A stretch of 37,888 bases of DNA from Roseateles sp. GTDB taxonomy: Bacteria; Pseudomonadota; Gammaproteobacteria; Burkholderiales; Burkholderiaceae_C. The stretch lies in contig JAEUPJ010000071.1 of assembly GCA_016790285.1 (NCBI GenBank), forward strand, positions 1 through 37,888, in the 5' to 3' direction. Made by a program: the position numbers and the translations under genes. Below, piece by piece: positions 7,035 to 37,884 of this stretch (position 1 is the stretch's first letter; every line of letters starts with the position of its first letter). The notes beneath the pieces were generated by a model. It was not told where the DNA came from. It was given only the letters and a program-made list of their open reading frames with translations, and made no database searches.

Positions 7035-9212
7035 ATGCCCACCACCCACCGCACGTCCCTCCACCGCCTGCAAGTCGATGCCGACCTCGCGCGCTTCATC
7101 GACACCGAAGTGCTGCCGGGCACGGGCGTGGCGCCGGACGCCTTCTGGGCCGGCTTCAGCCGCATCGCCCACGACCTGGCGCCCATGAACCGCGCGCTGC
7201 TCGCCGAGCGCGACCGCCTGCAGTCCGAGCTCGATGCCTGGCACGAGGCCCACCCCGGCCCCATCGCCGACATGCCCGCCTACCGCGAGTTCCTGACCCG
7301 CATCGGCTACCTCGTCGAGCCGCCCGCGCAGGTGCAGGCCACCACCGCCAACGTCGACGCCGAGCTGGCCGTGCAGGCCGGCCCGCAGCTCGTCGTGCCC
7401 ATCCTGAACGCCCGCTACGCGCTCAACGCCGCCAACGCGCGCTGGGGCTCGCTGTACGACGCCCTCTACGGCACCGACGCCATCCCCGAGACCGACGGCG
7501 CCACGCGTGATGGCGCCTACAACCCCGTGCGCGGCGCCAAGGTCATCGCCTACGCCCGCCAGGTGCTCGACCAGGCCGCGCCACTGGCCAGCGGCTCGCA
7601 CGCCGACTCGACCGGCTACCGCGTCGAGGGCGGCCAGCTCGTCGTGACGCTGGCCTCCGGCGCCACCACCGGCTTGCAGCACCCTGCCGCCTTCGCCGGC
7701 TTCCAGGGCTCGCCGGAAGCACCCAGCAGCGTGCTGCTGGTGCATCACGGCCTGCACCTGGACATCCGCATCGACCGCAGCACGCCCATCGGCAAGACCG
7801 ACCCCGCGGGCGTGGCCGACGTGGTGCTGGAGGCGGCCCTCTCCACCATCCTCGACCTGGAAGACTCCGTCGCGGCGGTGGATGCCCAGGACAAGTTGCT
7901 GGCCTACCGCAACTGGCTCGGCATCCAGCAGGGCACGCTGACGGAGGAAGTCGCCAAGGGCGGCAAGACCTTCACGCGCCGCCTGAACGCCGACCGCACC
8001 TACACCGCCCCGAATGGCGGCACGGTCACGCTGCACGGCCGCTCGCTCATGTTCGTGCGCAACGTCGGCCACCTGATGACCAACCCGGCCATCCTGCTGG
8101 ACGACGGCAGCGAGATCCCCGAGGGCATCATGGACGCGGTCGTCACGACGACGATTGCCATGCACGACCTCCAGCGCCGCGGGAACAGCCGCACCGGCTC
8201 GGTCTACATCGTCAAGCCCAAGATGCACGGCCCGGCAGAGGTGGCCTTCGCGTCCGAACTCTTCAGCCGCGTGGAGCAGCTGCTCGGCCTGCCCGACAGC
8301 ACCGTCAAGCTCGGCATCATGGACGAGGAGCGCCGCACCTCGGTGAACCTCAAGGCCTGCATCGCCGCGGCCGCCAGCCGCGTGGCTTTCATCAACACCG
8401 GCTTCCTGGACCGCACCGGCGACGAGATGCACACCGCCATGCGCGCCGGCCCGATGCTGCGCAAGGGCGACATGAAGACGTCCAGCTGGATCCAGGCCTA
8501 CGAGCGCAGCAACGTGCTCACCGGCCTGGCCTGCGGGCTGCGGGGCCGTGCCCAGATCGGCAAGGGCATGTGGGCCATGCCCGACCTGATGGCCGAGATG
8601 CTCAAGCAGAAGATCGGCCACCCCAAGGCCGGCGCCAACACCGCCTGGGTGCCCTCGCCCACCGCAGCGACCCTGCATGCGCTGCACTACCACCAGGTCA
8701 GCGTGGCCGCCGTGCAGCAGGAGCTCGAGAAGGTCGACCTCGCCGCCGAACGCGAAGGCATCCTGAACGCGCTGCTGACCATTCCCGTCGCGCCGCAGGC
8801 CGACTGGACGCCCGAGCAGCGCCAGCAGGAGCTGGACAACAACGTGCAGGGCATCCTTGGCTACGTGGTGCGCTGGATCGACCAGGGCGTCGGCTGCTCC
8901 AAGGTGCCCGACATCAACGGCGTGGGCCTGATGGAAGACCGCGCCACGCTGCGCATCAGCAGCCAGCACATCGCGAACTGGCTGCGCCACGGCGTGGTCA
9001 GCGCCGAGCAGGTGCGCGAGACCTTCACGCGCATGGCCCAGGTCGTGGACGGCCAGAACGCGGGCGATCCGGCCTACCAGTCGCTGGCCGCTCACCCGAC
9101 CGGTGCCGCCATGCAGGCCGCGCTGGACCTGGTGTTCAAGGGCGAGGCCCAGCCGAGCGGCTACACCGAGCCGCTGCTGCACGCCTGGCGGCTGAAGGTG
9201 AAGGCCGGCTGA
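7035..9212 (+). CDS. glcB: Malate synthase G
   Basis: This 725-residue protein has the length of the G isoform. It condenses glyoxylate with acetyl-CoA to malate in the cytoplasm, completing the glyoxylate bypass or glycolate utilisation. Signature stretches are [12 protein letters not shown] near 277-288, [13 protein letters not shown] (catalytic Arg), GCSKVPDI (the reactive Cys) and [19 protein letters not shown], whose MEDR Asp is the expected catalytic base. The ATG at 7035 follows GGAG at good spacing, and the protein begins at the usual family start. No isocitrate lyase or glycolate oxidase gene is in the window. The LysR gene upstream is divergent and may regulate it. Confidence 0.96.
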
Positions 9213-9726
9213 GCCCGGGCCAACCCTCGGTTCAGGAAACAGGGCTCCCTGCGCGTCAATCCGCGCAGTTGCCGCGGCCCGCCAGTTCGGGCTCGTAGGC
9301 GGGGCCTGCCCCCGGCGTGGGCGTCCGTACCCGCCCAGCTTGCAGGGCGGATCCTCCGCATTGCCGCTCTCGCCACCGCGCGCCGGCCAGCGCCGCCTGT
9401 GGCTCTGGCGGCTTTGGCTTGAGCTCGCCTTATCGACCGCGTCAATGTTGCTGTCTTGTAAAGCGTTGGGGGCGGACAACGATTCTCCGGGCATTAGACA
9501 AACCACCTAGTGGGCTGCAATTCCTGTTAGTAATCAATAACTTGCAGAAACCTGTCGAAACCGTCGGCACGCACATAGGGGCAGCCCCTCCCCGGAAGAA
9601 ATGAGGTCTTGACCAATACTTTTGGCACCCCCTAGCCCGACTGATCGTCGGCAGTGGTTCCCACATCGTCCGACGCGTGCCCTACCGGGCCACATCGGTT
9701 TTCTTTTCCCTTTAGGTGGAGTGCAT
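9213..9726. other. 514-bp gene-free leader between glcB and the Oar-like receptor
   Basis: No convincing gene is present. The first half is GC-rich with modest hairpins: TGGGCG/CGCCCA at 9318-9337 and GCCGCC/GGCGGC at 9392-9412, the latter followed by TTT and a weak glcB terminator candidate. From about 9440 the sequence becomes markedly more A+T-rich (TTGTAAAG, TTAGTAATCAATAACTTG), as expected of a promoter and long 5' leader. TTGACC at 9611-9616 might be a -35 box, but no good -10 follows. AGGTGG precedes the ATG at 9727. Confidence 0.5.
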
Positions 9727-33098: not shown

Positions 33099-34325
33099 TC
33101 ATCCCTTGACGCACACCACCTGCTTCAAGGTGTGGACCACGTCGACCAGGTCTGCCTGTGCCGCCATGACCGCGTCGATGTCCTTGTAGGCCGCGGGCGT
33201 CTCGTCGAGCACGTCCTTGTCCTTGCGGCACTCGACACCTTCGGTCGCGGCGCGGTGGTCGGCCAGGGTGAACTGACGCTTGGCGTCGCCACGGCTCATC
33301 ACGCGGCCCGCGCCGTGCGAGCACGACTCGAACGACGCCGGGTTGCCCTTGCCGCGCACGATGTAGCTGCGCGCGCCCATGCTGCCCGGGATGATGCCCA
33401 GCTGCCCCTTCTTCGCGCTCACGGCACCCTTGCGGGTCAGGTAGACGTCCTGGCCGAAGTGGGTCTCCTTCTGCACGTAGTTGTGGTGGCAGTTCACCGC
33501 CTCGATGTGGCTTTGGAAGTTCTTGCGGATCACGGTCTTGGCTGCTTCGATCACGCGGCGCATCATCACCTCGCGGTTCAGCGCGGCGAACTTCTGCGCC
33601 CAGCCGACCGCGCGCACGTAGTCGCCGAAGTAGCGGCTGCCCTCTTCGAAGTACGCGAGGTCGCGGTCGGGCAGGTTGGCGTTGTTGCGCATCGCGTCCT
33701 GCCTGGCCAGCTCGATGAACATCGTGCCGATGGCGTTGCCCACACCGCGCGAGCCCGAGTGCAGCATGAACCACACCGCGCCCTCTTCATCCAGGCAGAC
33801 CTCGATGAAGTGGTTGCCGGTGCCCAGCGTTCCCAGGTGCACACGGTGGTTCGTCTTCTCCAGCTTCGGGTAGCTGCGGCACAGCTCGGTGAACTCGGGC
33901 TCGAGCTCGGCCCACGCGGTGTCGACCGAGCCCGGCACCTTGCCCCACGCGCCGGGGTCGCGTGCGCCGGGCGCCCGGCCATGCGGTACCGCGCGCTCGA
34001 TGGCCGAGCGCAGCGGCGCCAGGTTGTCGGGCAGGTCTTGGGCCTTCAGCGTGGTCTTGCAGGCGATCATGCCGCAGCCGATATCCACGCCCACCGCGGC
34101 CGGGATGATGGCGCGGATGGTCGGGATCACCGAGCCGACGGTGGCGCCGATGCCGAAGTGCACGTCAGGCATCGCGGCGATGTGCTTGAAGACGATGGGC
34201 AGACGCGCCGCGTTGGTGAGCTGGCGCTTGGCTTCGTCTTCCACCGGCACGCCGCGCGTCCACATCTTGAGTGGCACGCCGCCCGGCACGGGTTCTTCGA
34301 TGTAGTTGATTTCGGGCGTTTCCAT
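33099..34325 (-). CDS. rtcB: tRNA-splicing/RNA-repair ligase RtcB
   Basis: This 408-residue RNA ligase joins 2',3'-cyclic phosphate (or 3'-phosphate) ends to 5'-OH ends using GTP and Mn2+. Metal ligands visible are the Asp and Cys in VGVDIGCGM near 79-85, His172 in GTGNHFIE, His189 in MLHSGSRG and His281 in NCHHNYVQKE. His337 in CSHGAGRVMSR is the guanylated residue, and the terminal CVKG is conserved. It matches E. coli RtcB over its length. I prefer ATG 34325, preceded by GGAG at 9-nt spacing, to ATG 34340, whose ribosome site would be buried in an 11-bp hairpin. It is the last gene of a minus-strand unit with a slipin, tRNA-like RNAs and a PcfJ-like gene. No rtcA or rtcR is visible. Confidence 0.97.
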   Translation of the reverse strand: METPEINYIEEPVPGGVPLKMWTRGVPVEDEAKRQLTNAARLPIVFKHIAAMPDVHFGIGATVGSVIPTIRAIIPAAVGVDIGCGMIACKTTLKAQDLPDNLAPLRSAIERAVPHGRAPGARDPGAWGKVPGSVDTAWAELEPEFTELCRSYPKLEKTNHRVHLGTLGTGNHFIEVCLDEEGAVWFMLHSGSRGVGNAIGTMFIELARQDAMRNNANLPDRDLAYFEEGSRYFGDYVRAVGWAQKFAALNREVMMRRVIEAAKTVIRKNFQSHIEAVNCHHNYVQKETHFGQDVYLTRKGAVSAKKGQLGIIPGSMGARSYIVRGKGNPASFESCSHGAGRVMSRGDAKRQFTLADHRAATEGVECRKDKDVLDETPAAYKDIDAVMAAQADLVDVVHTLKQVVCVKG

Positions 34326-34345
34326 GTTGGGATTCTCCATGTCCA

Positions 34346-34371
34346 GGGGAGGCTGCCGATGCAGCCTCCCC
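34346..34371 (-). promoter_or_regulatory. Strong hairpin in the rtcB leader
   Basis: The arms 34346-34356 and 34361-34371 (GGGGAGGCTGC on the minus strand before its partner) form a perfect 11-bp GC-rich stem with a 4-nt loop, ending 20 nt before the preferred rtcB start. There is no T-run, so it is not a classic terminator. It may be an RNA-processing or stabilising element, or an attenuator, between slipin and rtcB. Confidence 0.65.
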
Positions 34372-34382
34372 CAACGAGCCCG

Positions 34383-34449
34383 CGGGGCACATGCCCCGGG
34401 GCATTTCGGTTGCGGATGTCGCTGGCAATGCGAGCGGGCTCATGCCCGC
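34383..34449 (-). repeat. Two further hairpins in the slipin-rtcB spacer
   Basis: CGGGGC/GCCCCG (34383-34398, 4-nt loop) overlaps a perfect 14-bp palindrome ATGCCCCGGGGCAT (34391-34404). GCGGGC/GCCCGC (34434-34449, loop TCAT) lies closer to the slipin stop. With the rtcB leader hairpin they make this 148-bp spacer almost fully structured. Confidence 0.5.
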
Positions 34450-34473
34450 CCGCCCGCCGCTGCGCCGTGCTTC

Positions 34474-35619
34474 TCAGCGCAGCTTCACCAGGCCGTTGAG
34501 CACCTGGTCGAGGCCGCCGAACACGCTGATCTTGTCGATGCGTTCGGCCACCCGTTCCAGCGTCTCCAGCTCCTTCAGGCGCAGGGCGACGGGGTTGTCC
34601 TCCATCACCTTGGCCGTGTTGAGCAGCGAGCGCGTCGCCGCGGTCTCTTCGCGCCGGCGGATCACGTTGGCCTCGGCGGCCTTGCCGGCTTCCACCACCT
34701 GGGCGAGGATGGTCTTCATCTCGCCCGGCAGCACGATGTCCTTCACGCCCACACCTTCGAGCGCGAGGCCGTAGGCCGCGAGCTTGGCGGTGACCTGGGC
34801 AGTGACGACCTCGTCGATGACCGACTTGTTCTCCAGCAGCTCGTCGAGCGAACGGGTGCCCACCGCGGCGCGCAGGCCGAACTGCAGCTCGCGGTACAGG
34901 TGTTCCGCGGGCTTGGCCAGTTCCTTGTAGGCCCGAAGCACATCGGTGAAGCGCCAGGTCGCCGACAGGTTCAGCCTGAGCGCCACCTTGTCGCGCGTGA
35001 GGATTTCCTGGCCGCTGACTTCCAGCGCCTGCAGCCGCAGGTCCACGAGCTCGACCGCGACGTTGCGGTTGAACTTCCAGAACGCATACGAACCGGGTGC
35101 CAGCAGCCGCTCGACCTTGCCGTCGATCCACAGGATGCCGGCGCCGTATTCGGGCACCTGCGCCTGCAGCACGCCGGTCAGGCCCGACACCGCGCGCGGA
35201 CGCAGCTGCGTTTGCACCAGGCGCGCGGCCAGAGCAGAGGGCAGCTCCACGGTGCCCGCGATGTCGATCACCTCGACCCGCACGTCGACCAGGCCTCGCC
35301 AGTACAGGCGCCGCGTGGCCGGCGGCAGCAACTCGACCAGCACGCCGTTCTCGGTGCGCAGGCCGACCTGCGTTTCGGTGAGTTCCGCGCGCACGAATTC
35401 GCGGGCCACGACTTGCGGCTCCTTGGCCATCAGATAGTCGGCGAGGGGGTGCGTGAACGCCGGCTGGTCGAGGTCGAACAGCTCGACCTCGCGCGCGCCG
35501 AAGCCGGCCAGGCCGCTGAACAACCAGGTGGTGCCGGGTTGCAGCACACGTTCGAAGTCGCCGTTGCGCAGCAACAGGCCACGCTGGTTCTTGGCGACGG
35601 TGACACGCTCGAGCTTCAT
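34474..35619 (-). CDS. Slipin family SPFH/Band-7 protein
   Basis: This 381-residue SPFH-domain protein starts directly with a beta-rich region (VTVAKNQRGLLLRNGDFERVLQPGTTWLF), a second similar segment (GAGILWIDGKVERLLAPGSYAFWKF), and then the band-7 core (DLRLQALEVSGQEILTRDKVALRLNLSATWRF). A helical C-terminus follows (VVEAGKAAEANVIRRREETAATRSLLNTAKVMEDNPV), typical of slipins. Unlike many stomatin relatives it lacks an N-terminal membrane helix, so it may be peripheral or cytosolic. SPFH proteins oligomerise into rings. The ATG at 35619 has AAGGAG upstream. It sits just before rtcB on the same strand; SPFH proteins are recurrent neighbours of RtcB, and a shared role in RNA repair is inferred. 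Confidence 0.87.
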   Translation of the reverse strand: MKLERVTVAKNQRGLLLRNGDFERVLQPGTTWLFSGLAGFGAREVELFDLDQPAFTHPLADYLMAKEPQVVAREFVRAELTETQVGLRTENGVLVELLPPATRRLYWRGLVDVRVEVIDIAGTVELPSALAARLVQTQLRPRAVSGLTGVLQAQVPEYGAGILWIDGKVERLLAPGSYAFWKFNRNVAVELVDLRLQALEVSGQEILTRDKVALRLNLSATWRFTDVLRAYKELAKPAEHLYRELQFGLRAAVGTRSLDELLENKSVIDEVVTAQVTAKLAAYGLALEGVGVKDIVLPGEMKTILAQVVEAGKAAEANVIRRREETAATRSLLNTAKVMEDNPVALRLKELETLERVAERIDKISVFGGLDQVLNGLVKLR

Positions 35620-35920
35620 GGTGTTCTCCTTGTGGAAGCGTGTGTTGGGGGAAGGAACGAAATGGGGAAAAGGGTGCCGTTACAGCGGCCACCGCGGTCC
35701 TCGGATGCCTGGGCCCGGGTGCCACGGTGCGCCTTCGCCAGCGGCGCCAGCGCCATCCAGACTGCTTGGCGCTGCGCTGCTTGCTGCGGCTGGCCGTGGA
35801 CGCGCAGCCCCGCCTGCCCGAGGCACGAGCGGCGGCCGCTGATGCGCCTTCGAGGCTTCACGCCTTGCGGCGAGTGGGCCTCTCGGTGCGCACGTCCGGC
35901 GGGTGGTCTTTCGACCGGTT
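35620..35920 (-). other. Gene-free stretch between tRNA-like RNAs and slipin
   Basis: About 300 bp with no credible gene. A short minus-strand open frame runs through part of it but lacks conserved-looking composition. It is GC-rich with short inverted repeats, e.g. GGCGC/GCGCC near 35742, then becomes purine-poor on the minus strand (TTTTCCCCATTTCG) just before the slipin ribosome-binding site AAGGAG. It is probably the 3' region of the tRNA-like transcripts and the slipin leader. Confidence 0.4.
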
Positions 35921-35998
35921 CACTGGGATGGAGCGGGAGTCGAACCCGCGACAGACGACGGTTGAGGTCGTTGCTCTACCCGACTGAGCTATCCAGTG
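35921..35998 (-). tRNA. tRNA-like RNA, anticodon CAA, degraded acceptor stem
   Basis: On the minus strand the cloverleaf interior is complete. TA at 8-9, D stem GCTC/GAGC with loop AGTCGGGTA, anticodon stem ACGAC/GTCGT (perfect), loop CTCAACC (anticodon CAA, Leu), variable CTGTC, and T arm GCGGG-TTCGACT-CCCGC (perfect). The acceptor is abnormal: 5' CACTGGA against 3' TCCATCC pairs only at the inner four positions. Instead CACTGG (35993-35998) can pair with CCAGTG (35921-35926) further out. Position 37 is C instead of the usual purine. The 3' side contains TCCAT-C-CCA, which would give a shortened acceptor with CCA. Two bases overlap the CCA of the next RNA. A functional tRNA-Leu is unlikely, since the long variable arm is missing. 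Confidence 0.7.
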
Positions 35999-36051
35999 GA
36001 GGTGATGCCGGGAGTCGAACCCGGGCCCCGAGGGGCAGCCCTGTCATCACC
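35997..36051 (-). ncRNA. Armless tRNA-like RNA with perfect acceptor, T arm and CCA
   Basis: On the minus strand GGTGATG (36051-36045) pairs perfectly with CATCACC (36007-36001), giving a 7-bp acceptor. Adjacent to the 3' half is a perfect T arm CCGGG-TTCGACT-CCCGG. After the acceptor come a discriminator T and an encoded CCA (35999-35997). Only 20 nt replace the D and anticodon arms; they can form one small stem (AGGG/CCCT or CCCC/GGGG). The 5' flank holds another hairpin, GTGGC-CGAT-GCCAC (36065-36052). It could be a tRNA mimic, or the tRNA-like module of a longer RNA, as in bacterial YrlA-type Y RNAs that sit near rtcB in enterics. Confidence 0.65.
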
Positions 36052-36126
36052 GTGGCATCGGCCACCTCTGGCAGCGCGGCATGTGCGGCGGCGACGGCCT
36101 TTCCGATGAGGAAGGACCGGCCACCG

Positions 36127-36159
36127 CACACCGGCGGGGCGGTTGAACCCCGGCCTGTG
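36127..36159 (-). ncRNA. T-arm-like minihelix
   Basis: On the minus strand CGGGG and CCCCG form a 5-bp stem around loop TTCAACCG, which begins with the T-loop signature TTCAA but has eight bases instead of seven. The stem is extended by GGC/GCC-like and CACA/TGTG pairs (36156-36159 with 36127-36130), giving an acceptor/T-arm minihelix of about 12 bp with a small bulge. No CCA follows. It may be a remnant of another tRNA-like RNA. Confidence 0.35.
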
Positions 36160-36229
36160 AGCGCTGCGTTCGGCAGCAGATTCTTCTTCGCCAATGCTGC
36201 GGCCGACACGCGGCTTCAGCGCTGGTAGT

Positions 36230-36248
36230 GATGGCGATTCACGCCATC
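36230..36248 (-). terminator. Hairpin downstream of the PcfJ-like gene
   Basis: GATGGCG (36230-36236) and CGCCATC (36242-36248) form a perfect 7-bp stem with loop ATTCA, 38 bp after the PcfJ-like stop codon. There is no long T-run on the minus strand, so it is a weak terminator or a processing site before the tRNA-like RNAs. Confidence 0.4.
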
Positions 36249-36285
36249 GAAAGCGACCGCTGCGCAGGCAGCAGTGCCCCCTCGC

Positions 36286-37434
36286 CTACGGCAGCGTGAT
36301 GCCGCGTGCCCGCGCCCAGCGCTGCAGCACCTGGCGCTCGGCGGCGTGGGCCAGCCGGTTGGCAAATCCGCGCACCTGCACGGCCTGGCCCTGCGCGTCG
36401 ACCTCGATCGTCAGCAGCGAGTCGGTGCGCTCCTTGGTGATATGCCGAAGCGACCAGATCGAGGCATGCCCGGCGATGCACTTGCCGGCGTAGGTCCACA
36501 CGCAGTGGCGCATCGCGCGGCTCTCGGCCACCAGCTCGGCGGCCTGCTTGAGCTGGCGCACGACAAAGCGCTCGCCCTTGGCCTTGGCTTCCTTGGCCGA
36601 GGGCGCCCACTCCCAATCGGCCAGCGGTGCACCGGTCCACTGGGCGTCGGGGGCCACCGCGTCGGTGTAGCGCGCGTCGGCTCGCCGGCGCAGGGCCTCG
36701 ATGCGCTCGATGGCAGCGAGGTCGCGGTGCCACTCGTGCATGCGCCGGTTCAGCGTGGCCAACGTGCGCCCTTCGAGGCTGTAGCCGGCGTCGCGGCGGC
36801 GGCACTCGTCGAGGTAGTCACAGAGGTCGTCGATGGCCTCCACCGGCAGCGGGTTGGCGCAGAAGAACCGCGCCGCCTCGCGCCAGAAGGCGAGTTCGCC
36901 GCGCGGCTTGCGCGCGATCTTCGAGCGCGCGATGTTCAGCGCCACGGCGGCGTCGCCGGTGTACGAGCGCGCGACGGCCTGCCAGAAGGCCTGATCGAAA
37001 CTCAGGCCCGGGGCGCTGGTCAGGAAGGCGTGCACCTCCTTGCGCGTCAGCCAGGCGTTGGCGCCGGCCTTGGTCAGCGAGCCCCCGCGCGCGGCGACGA
37101 TGTACCAGTCCCGGCGCAACCGCACCTCGTCTTCGCCGAGGCCGGTGTCGTCGATCCACACCTGCTCGAGCATTGCGGGCACCGGATAGAGCGCAAAGAG
37201 GTGCCGCGCCGCGGCCAGCCGCAGGCGGCCGGCGTCGCGCGTCTTCATCTGGGGGCGCCAGGCCTGCGGCTCGCGCACGGCCAGGCCCGCGAAGCCGCGC
37301 CGGGCTTCGTCGAGGGCCAAGAGGAAATTCGGGGTCGGGCGCGGCCGACGCATCACGCGGCGAAGCGTGGCGTCGTACAGCTGCGTTCGTTCGCGCTCGG
37401 CGTCCTGCCTGCGCTGGATCGTCGAGCGTGCCAT
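36286..37434 (-). CDS. PcfJ-like domain protein
   Basis: This 382-residue protein has a C-terminal PcfJ-like domain (about 285-370). The signature is RAMRHCVWTYAGKCIAGHASIWSLR, with Cys311 and Cys319 spaced as in the family's CVxxYxxxC pattern, followed by LLTIEVDAQGQAVQVRGFANR. The N-terminal 280 residues are basic and helical (IQRRQDAERERTQLYDATLRRVMRRPRP at the start). PcfJ-like proteins were first noted on conjugative plasmids, and their biochemical role is unknown. Start ATG 37434 (MARSTIQRRQD) is chosen because the in-frame extension runs into the tRNA-Asp-like RNA. It lies between two groups of tRNA-like RNAs and upstream of slipin and rtcB on the same strand. Confidence 0.75.
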   Translation of the reverse strand: MARSTIQRRQDAERERTQLYDATLRRVMRRPRPTPNFLLALDEARRGFAGLAVREPQAWRPQMKTRDAGRLRLAAARHLFALYPVPAMLEQVWIDDTGLGEDEVRLRRDWYIVAARGGSLTKAGANAWLTRKEVHAFLTSAPGLSFDQAFWQAVARSYTGDAAVALNIARSKIARKPRGELAFWREAARFFCANPLPVEAIDDLCDYLDECRRRDAGYSLEGRTLATLNRRMHEWHRDLAAIERIEALRRRADARYTDAVAPDAQWTGAPLADWEWAPSAKEAKAKGERFVVRQLKQAAELVAESRAMRHCVWTYAGKCIAGHASIWSLRHITKERTDSLLTIEVDAQGQAVQVRGFANRLAHAAERQVLQRWARARGITLP

Positions 37435-37466
37435 GGTGGTCTGCCTTGGTTGGGTTGAGGATGAAG

Positions 37467-37543
37467 TGGGTATCTCGTGCCGGACTTGAGCCCGCGGCTT
37501 CCGGCTCGACAGGCCGGCACTCTGGCCGCTGAGCCGGCAAGGG
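37467..37543 (-). tRNA. tRNA-Asp-like RNA (anticodon GTC), degraded acceptor
   Basis: On the minus strand: D stem GCTC/GAGT with loop AGCGGCCA, anticodon stem CCGGC/GCCGG (perfect), loop CTGTCGA (anticodon GTC, U33 kept), variable AAGCC, T arm GCGGG-CTCAAGT-CCGGC with one mismatch and C54 in place of T54. The acceptor is badly paired: 5' CCCTTGC against 3' ACGAGAT matches only in a CTTG/CGAG core. Positions 8-9 are C-G instead of T-A. ACCCA follows the 3' side, one C too many for a regular discriminator plus CCA. It is therefore a tRNA mimic or decayed tRNA rather than a working tRNA-Asp. It lies 33 bp upstream of the PcfJ-like start. Confidence 0.6.
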
Positions 37544-37659
37544 GGCAAGTTGAACCATCCGGTCACGGGTTCCGGCGCCGCCCGATCTCTGCGGCCGATT
37601 TCCGCCTCGAAGCGTTTGCTCGACGAGGCTCCTGTTCAGTGCTGGCATTCAAGAACGCC

Positions 37660-37811
37660 CACTTCGGCTGTGCCCAGGCGCGAGCGTCCCGTCGGACGTG
37701 GTGTCTCGCTGCACGGGGCCTGGGCCCGTTGTCGATCGAGAGGCCGCGCACATCCCGCGGCCGCCCACACCCTGTGTCGCGGCCGCGGAGTGCCTGGGCA
37801 CACCCGAAGTG
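37660..37811 (-). ncRNA. Structured spacer bounded by 22-bp inverted repeats
   Basis: Positions 37660-37681 and 37790-37811 are reverse complements over 22 bp with two mismatches (core GCCTGGGCACA). The 108-bp interior contains a perfect hairpin GGCCGCG/CGCGGCC with 7-nt loop (37742-37762) and other GC-rich inverted repeats. The right arm overlaps the CCA end of the tRNA-Gly-like RNA by two bases, so the two structures may compete or be processed apart. No coding frame is convincing. It may be a small structured RNA between tRNA-like units. Confidence 0.45.
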
Positions 37812-37884
37812 GTGCGAACGGCGAGAGTCGAACTCGCGCCCCGGCCATGGCGTGGCCGTGCTCTGCCTGCTGAGCTACATCCGC
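37810..37884 (-). tRNA. tRNA-Gly(GCC)-like gene with C33 and encoded CCA
   Basis: The complete cloverleaf on the minus strand has acceptor GCGGATG/CGTTCGC (7 bp, two wobbles), TA at 8-9, D stem GCTC/GAGC with loop AGCAGGCA (GG present), A26, anticodon stem CGGCC/GGCCG, loop ACGCCAT (anticodon GCC), a 4-nt variable loop, T arm GCGAG-TTCGACT-CTCGC, discriminator A and genomic CCA. The overall form is that of tRNA-Gly(GCC). However, position 33 is C instead of the nearly invariant U, and A32/T38 are unusual. Bacterial tRNA-Gly normally has discriminator U, here A. A gene finder may call it a normal tRNA-Gly; I suspect a specialised tRNA-like RNA linked to the rtcB locus. Confidence 0.75.

Follow-up and report, generated by a model that had tools for sequence, protein, structure and literature searches.

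What do the altered tRNA-like RNAs do that lie interleaved with the gene of an RNA ligase? This question is raised by a contig of Roseateles sp., a member of the Burkholderiales (assembly GCA_016790285.1, contig JAEUPJ010000071.1; its 37,888 nucleotides (nt) were analysed as a whole and are called the window here, and its genome is G000). Its minus strand carries, in this order, a tRNA-Gly, a conserved spacer, a tRNA-Asp remnant, a PcfJ-like gene, two tRNA-like RNAs, a slipin gene and rtcB. The initial annotation took all these RNAs for tRNAs damaged at different places, acting as decoys, damage sensors or repair substrates beside RtcB, with slipin and PcfJ as partners. The inventory and the transcription order that it gave were confirmed by model, Pfam and Rfam searches. 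The idea of a conserved island with non-canonical tRNA-like RNAs stood in so far as the island recurs in different genera and families together with rtcB and, in sister loci, with RtcR. However, the RNAs are not equivalent: tRNA-Gly and tRNA-Asp are members of an array whose extra tRNAs are mostly ordinary, whereas the two RNAs before slipin are parts of one larger conserved RNA, referred to below as the slipin-leader RNA.

The slipin-leader RNA and its tandem tRNA mimics

The two RNAs in front of slipin form a tandem pair of tRNA mimics (elements 1 and 2), which is embedded in a predicted structured RNA of roughly 490 nt preceding the slipin gene. This leader RNA consists of a 5' domain, the tandem pair, a GNRA hairpin and a 3' domain terminating at CTGTAACGG. 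Its parts and the slipin gene are located in the window as follows:

36052..36165 (outer bounds approximate), minus strand: 5' domain of the leader RNA, GCTCACAGGCCGGGG..ACATGCCGCG, placed by comparison and motif positions
36001..36051, minus strand: element 1, a tRNA mimic with acceptor stem, short hairpin and T arm, then TCCA
35925..35998, minus strand: element 2, a tRNA mimic with D, anticodon and T arms, an acceptor of about 4 base pairs and the loop CTCAACC ('CAA')
35905..35917, minus strand: GNRA hairpin of the leader RNA, CGGTC-GAAA-GACC
35673..35900 (upper bound approximate), minus strand: 3' domain of the leader RNA, its terminus the conserved CTGTAACGGCACC, from RNAalifold with double changes
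34474..35619, minus strand: slipin (SPFH/Band 7) gene, the constant partner of the leader RNA (Pfam Band_7, 5.4e-29)

Element 2 of the window, annotated as a 'CAA' tRNA-like RNA, is matched by the tRNA model at 35929-35995 with 44.6 bits, and its acceptor has four pairs followed by TCCC instead of seven pairs and CCA. Element 1, annotated as 'armless', has a seven-pair acceptor and TCCA; its D arm is missing, in agreement with that annotation, and it shows only a short hairpin, with no tRNA-size anticodon loop and hence no seven-base loop with U33. In Rfam, element 1 (36001-36051) matches mascRNA-menRNA with 34.0 bits and E 3.4e-4, under the cut-off of 42.5. This similarity would suit an alternative in which element 1 is a minimal, mascRNA-like substrate of RNase P/Z, at which a polycistronic transcript is cut and the slipin-rtcB mRNA is freed from the tRNA array; the combination of acceptor and T arm, often followed by NCCA, points in the same direction. 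Nevertheless, loci of the RtcR type (see below) keep the RNA though they are mostly devoid of a tRNA array, and element 2 as well as the 5' and 3' domains are left unexplained. Such a processing signal is considered unlikely.

The conservation of the pair was followed in 61 Burkholderiales slipin loci. Element 2 was recovered with a regular expression in 47 of the 61, and element 1 was extracted from 41 of these 47, some of its acceptor assignments being visibly offset (e.g. L004, L009, L114); alignment A3 comprises compact pairs picked by hand. The covariation amounts to 0.445 in element 2 (47 sequences), versus 0.132 when shuffled, and to 0.415 in the whole pair (20 sequences), versus 0.140, with two-sided changes at 22 of the 33 base pairs in this second set. 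Sliding the pairing partners abolishes the signal in the element 2 set and the pair set alike. The D-arm pairs of element 2 are invariant in the 47 sequences, its T arm is 100% paired, and its anticodon stem is paired in 96.6% of the cells, with double changes at all five pairs. In the acceptor, the distal pairs 1, 2 and 3 form in 11, 14 and 23 of the 47 sequences, and the inner four in 42-46. Element 2 starts almost immediately 3' of the NCCA or similar end of element 1. The latter presents the acceptor stem, short hairpin and T arm in close relatives, and six more distant loci have a complete cloverleaf in its place, with an anticodon arm ending in four bases (GAAA in L068 and L072, GCAA in L079, also L071 and L075) or five (L076). 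In other Gammaproteobacteria (L190, L192-L195, L197, L198, L200), a further T-arm minihelix with a small hairpin can be read 3' of element 2.

The anticodon stem of element 2, with four or five pairs, is kept in all 58 loci that could be parsed, and its loop has 4-8 bases. Seven-base loops with U33 were found in 27 of the 58 (the window included), seven-base loops without U33 in 10 and other lengths in 21, according to a five-pair-stem parse (58/58 parsed); a longest-stem parse (57/58) misread some loops. A GNRA tetraloop caps element 2 in 6/58 loci by the first parse or 7/57 by the second. Among 13 close loci, the anticodon positions 34-36 differ by 0.66 per site, versus 0.29 at 141 fourfold sites of slipin, random triplets of which reach 0.66 in 5e-5 of draws, although this control is a GC-rich gene with codon bias and the contrast may be inflated. 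This hypervariability may reflect diversification or a constraint that was simply lost.

The loop would have a function of its own if element 2 were a sacrificial bait, cut by anticodon nucleases instead of the real tRNAs and tracking the local nucleases through its variation. The excess of change at the anticodon positions, the nearly invariant D and T arms and the resemblance of 27 of the 58 loops to real anticodon loops are in line with this proposal; on the other hand, the GNRA caps in 6 or 7 loci leave nothing to cut, the excess is subject to the bias of the fourfold sites, and the loop may merely be unconstrained. A bait is thus an improbable explanation, and a role as anticodon-nuclease bait, or as dedicated repair substrate as proposed in the initial annotation, fits poorly with a GNRA-capped element 2 and with an element 1 that lacks a tRNA-size loop in the window. 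The RNAs may instead be decoys, sensors or scaffolds. On these counts, the more constant lesion of element 2 is its short acceptor and not its loop, and the two mimics seem unfit for ordinary protein synthesis.

Concerning the rest of the leader, RNAalifold predicted 125 pairs in 13 close leaders, 45 of them with two-sided changes in at least one sequence; in this fold element 2 partly departs from the tRNA form, with alternative pairs where its acceptor and D arm would be, and support for the outer domains is weaker than for the tandem pair. The CTGTAACGG motif lies 43 to 66 nt upstream of slipin in most of the close-family loci that carry it. At gathering score, tRNA is the only Rfam family that matches the window, L003-L013 and L032, and no description of the leader RNA was found in searches of open-access papers, so it is apparently undescribed. 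The RNA and its placement are established from sequence; that it is transcribed, and which partners and function it has, we infer.

For the distribution of the pair, a covariance model of it (R1) was used, in whose training 20 of the 61 loci took part. R1 spans both elements in the window (35925-36051, 133.8 bits) and matches the pair at E<=1e-6 in 58 of the 61 loci and in 38 of the 41 non-training loci. Of these 58 matches, 57 share the strand of slipin and precede its start; the other one (L078) precedes an N-terminally partial slipin match, whose start was extrapolated. R1 also matches ordinary and array tRNAs, up to 75.0 bits (array of G050), so that the pair is identified only by position and score jointly. 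Among 60 relatives, a best score of at least 79 bits coincides exactly with a slipin at E<1e-100, and 11 genomes have both. The remaining 49, G038 with its 43% slipin included, have best scores below 70 bits, as ordinary tRNAs do. At class level, 17 of 19 more distant slipin loci (not L196 and L207) have a candidate R1 match of at least 44 bits, several of them no higher than ordinary tRNAs and one (L191) more than 1.3 kilobases (kb) from slipin. Citrobacter keeps a GGGGTT..CCCCGCCGG motif and a T arm though R1 fails to detect the pair there.

The idea that the RNAs are degenerating, functionless remnants of the tRNA array can be weighed at this point. The tRNA-Asp of the window does look like a decayed copy, but for the pair this idea is contradicted, and chance decay is countered, by the covariation, the co-occurrence with slipin and a placement kept across many families (58 of 61 loci). 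It is very improbable.

The slipin gene itself is sparsely distributed. Besides the genome of the window, an orthologue is present in 9 of 59 relatives at 81-84% identity, in one at 62% and in one at 43%; counting the genome of the window, slipin was detected in 32 of 399 genomes of the order and 26 of 299 of the family (both E<=1e-60) and in 21 of 369 of the class (E<=1e-40). In L063/L091 (G233) and L120 (G665), the slipin gene is interrupted by a single stop codon (TGA, TAA). G000 has a second slipin-rtcB locus (L051, C60:1-12000) with HNH, tRNA-Leu and a divergent regulator, which bears its own tandem pair (R1 134.4 bits).

In a set of 43 slipin loci, 33 have a same-strand rtcB at most 5 kb away, before or after slipin. 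These counts and those of the 61 loci are not independent because the locus sets overlap (L002-L013 with L040-L051; L052-L079 with L080-L108). One locus with a tRNA array, PcfJ, rtcB and a divergent regulator (L033) lacks a slipin match, and R1 reaches at most 39.9 bits there. As judged from these patterns, the leader RNA tracks slipin more closely than rtcB. Since the RNA is tied to slipin and not to rtcB, it most likely works with slipin, either as a leader that sets slipin output or as a recruiter of tRNA-handling enzymes to a membrane slipin scaffold.

A simpler version of the first option is that the leader acts in cis only, as a riboregulator that controls slipin translation or the stability of the transcript and would read the tRNA pool via competition for a factor that binds the elbow, such as RNase P or an enzyme of tRNA modification, with no separate RNA being made. 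The position of 57 of the 58 R1 matches upstream of slipin on its strand, the CTGTAACGG motif at the end of the 3' domain 43 to 66 nt before the gene, and the start of the 5' domain soon after a sigma54 site in sister loci argue for it. However, the consensus fold does not pair the ribosome-binding site, and 490 nt with two tRNA mimics are large for a simple switch. This cis-acting leader is a real possibility, held here with limited confidence.

The tRNA array and the other genes of the island

The remaining features of the island are the following:

37813..37884, minus strand: tRNA-Gly(GCC) of the array, with C33 replacing U33 (tRNA model 54.8 bits; loop ACGCCAT)
37536..37812, minus strand: structured spacer RNA, a second conserved RNA, aligned with L080, L033 and L032 (closing arms CCACTTCGG/CCGAAGTGG)
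37479..37535, minus strand: tRNA-Asp(GTC) of the array, decayed, acceptor lost (31.4 bits; family cut-off 29)
36286..37434, minus strand: PcfJ-like protein, accessory (Pfam PF14284, 4.8e-16)
33099..34340, minus strand: rtcB, RNA ligase (Pfam RtcB, 1.3e-126)

The window is the complete contig and ends at tRNA-Gly, so the 5' end of the island is out of sight, past the contig edge and beyond this tRNA. Extra tRNAs, 1 to 18 per locus and mostly intact with CCA, are present in 25 of the 43 loci. Most of the 97 distinct array tRNAs called by ARAGORN look like intact cloverleaves, in a set that includes at least one pair element (L105) and some doubtful calls (e.g. tRNA-Ser of L040, 'tRNA-Ala' of L033). 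Their anticodon loops do show changes. A base other than U occupies position 33 in 15 of 96 seven-base array loops, versus none of 36 distinct housekeeping tRNAs (p 0.011), taken from 30 loci of three genomes and mainly the best-scoring ones. The C33 of the tRNA-Gly, which the initial annotation had noticed, recurs in 4/4 array tRNA-Gly(GCC) from three families (window; L049, L080, L103), and array tRNA-Asp has G or U at position 37 in 8/8 distinct sequences, versus A in the sole housekeeping tRNA-Asp of the set. The lesion of the tRNA-Asp in the window is also present as described, since the match covers model positions 9-63 only, without the acceptor; nevertheless, it looks like decay of this copy and not like a conserved lesion, because its counterpart in L080 is intact. 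Between tRNA-Gly and the tRNA-Asp remnant, about 200 nt of the spacer are common to L080, L033 and L032, and the spacer RNA has no Rfam match.

The most natural reading of the array would be that it holds standby tRNAs, because of the loop changes, the likeness to phage tRNAs and the array regulon of Anabaena, both discussed below.

The core role assigned to PcfJ did not hold up: it occurs in just 3 of the 43 slipin loci, and none of six further PcfJ loci (L034-L039) has slipin or rtcB in the stretch examined. One of these, L034, has its PcfJ gene (7856-9519) within an array of tRNAs for Asp, His, Leu, Lys and Gln. Among named organisms, the closest relatives of the PcfJ gene of the window come from Rubrivivax, Methylibium, Ramlibacter and Aquabacterium.

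Two operon types and a possible response to tRNA damage

How the island could be switched on is suggested by its sister loci, which are of two types. In the first one, rtcR was found in 15 of 41 large neighbourhoods of slipin (tblastn with the Citrobacter protein as query), and also near slipin in two named records, Citrobacter and Burkholderia cenocepacia. Sigma54-like sites, defined by an ad hoc score (threshold of at least 20 of 21.5; background 0.034 per 500 nt), are located at -900..-400 in 12 of the 15 rtcR loci versus 1 of the 26 others; a thirteenth one (L105) falls outside this range owing to a partial slipin match. In 20 loci and the two named records, no more than about 50 nt separate these promoters from the first conserved sequence of the 5' domain, so the leader RNA would be their first product. 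In Salmonella, RtcR is activated by 5' tRNA halves with a cyclic phosphate (PMC7790460). In the E. coli and Citrobacter records (L208, 4998-6922; L209, 4995-6913) a nucleotidyltransferase gene follows slipin, and relatives of it occur in several RtcR-type Burkholderiales loci.

The second type, to which the window belongs, has no rtcR at the locus; a small divergent gene encoding a helix-turn-helix-like protein is present in 16 of the 43 loci, and most loci of this type have a tRNA array with HNH or PcfJ genes in front. The helix-turn-helix label is a reading of the alignment, and the divergent-gene proteins tested have no Pfam or NCBIfam match. Array tRNAs beyond the pair are found in 14 of 16 divergent-regulator loci versus 1 of 15 RtcR loci, L105 being excluded from the latter because its single tRNA is the pair itself. 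No examined stretch has both rtcR and the divergent regulator. This mutual exclusion is limited to the stretches examined, since one genome with a divergent-regulator locus (G009, L044) carries rtcR on the contig of its slipin, at a distance of about 11.5 kb, and another one (G050, L048) elsewhere in the genome. Neither regulator is present in the examined stretch of 12 of the 43 loci, several of which have arrays (L049, L096, L100, L102). In a PADLOC search with the threshold E<=0.01, PcfJ, the helix-turn-helix-like protein, slipin and RtcB were without a match, and the HNH protein had only weak HNH matches.

Taken together, the island has somewhat better than even prospects of being a tRNA-damage response operon that combines repair by RtcB, standby tRNAs and a tRNA-mimic RNA. 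Such an operon would be switched on by tRNA breakage or translational stress; RtcB would rejoin the tRNA halves and the array tRNAs would replace the host tRNAs that have been cut. The leader RNA would be an inert tRNA mimic, whose conserved elbow (D and T arms) could be bound by a tRNA-binding factor and whose incomplete acceptor (element 2) or absent decoding loop (element 1) would prevent activity as tRNA.

Several observations weigh against this interpretation. There is no match to RtcR (PF06956) in G000, whose assembly is about 95% complete, and loci of the window type have no good sigma54 site near the leader RNA; for this reason, the window itself gives no ground for assuming that RtcR senses damage there. 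With 27 of the 58 element 2 loops, that of the window included, still decoding-compatible (seven bases, U33), element 2 is not universally non-decoding. Moreover, R1 has no match at E<=1e-6 in three of the 61 loci (L013, L059, L128) and scores just 12.4 and 10.5 bits in E. coli and Citrobacter, and 10 of the 43 slipin loci are without a same-strand rtcB inside 5 kb. Finally, all locus counts are raw and ignore shared ancestry.

A bolder extension of the tRNA-damage response, which is rather doubtful for now, is that the leader represents a new class of large bacterial noncoding RNA, with two tandem mimics (one devoid of a decoding loop, the other of a complete acceptor), that assembles with a membrane slipin scaffold and gathers tRNA-repair enzymes when RtcR or its replacement senses broken tRNAs. 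Such an assembly of a noncoding RNA with slipin can be likened to OLE RNA, which works with a membrane protein.

Comparison with known systems

One of the closest known systems is the RNA-repair operon controlled by RtcR and sigma54. It shares RtcB, the RtcR and sigma54-like promoter of the sister loci and a tRNA-mimicking RNA, which is YrlA there (PMC7790460). In contrast, the RNA described here precedes slipin and has two tandem non-permuted mimics plus further domains, and the window type lacks RtcR and has a tRNA array. YrlA and the bacterial Y RNAs (RF02553) are likewise tRNA-like RNAs linked to rtcB and RtcR. However, the T arm precedes the D arm in the YrlA consensus, whereas element 2 follows the usual order of a tRNA and the D arm is absent from element 1 of the window; membership of this family was rejected, as the window scores 24.2 bits versus a gathering cut-off of 69. 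If the function of the leader RNA is as proposed, the purpose of tRNA-mimicking RNAs such as YrlA in RNA-repair operons would become testable.

The link between an SPFH gene and the rtc genes is already in print at the gene level for Pseudomonas aeruginosa, where PaFlo8 lies within the rtcA-rtcB-rtcR locus (PMC13086221). PA4582, listed as a protein of unknown function of that locus (PMC8619066), is presumably the same protein. The available parts of both sources (PMC13086221, PMC8619066) mention no associated RNA.

In Anabaena, a mutant of a single repressor shows a joint increase of an array of 26 tRNAs, rtcB, a slipin and HNH genes (PMC10272220). This trn operon and TrcR regulon resembles the window type in combining a stress-silenced tRNA array with rtcB, slipin and HNH; it differs in that the genes are dispersed and the repressor belongs to the ribbon-helix-helix family (PMC10272220).

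Published RNA-repair operons, as presented in the accessible parts of the literature, follow two designs, rtcBA and rsr-yrlBA-rtcBA. The loci described here would add another one, in which a large RNA that imitates tRNA twice comes first after a damage-type promoter.

Regarding the array, phages carry extra tRNAs with anticodon-loop changes that have been proposed to resist anticodon nucleases (PMC10264068). The array described here differs in being chromosomal and adjoining RNA-repair genes, and a phage origin was rejected, since the phage collection has no slipin match at E<=1e-10. The resemblance suggests that some bacteria, like phages, may keep standby tRNAs with altered anticodon loops, in their case in the chromosome.

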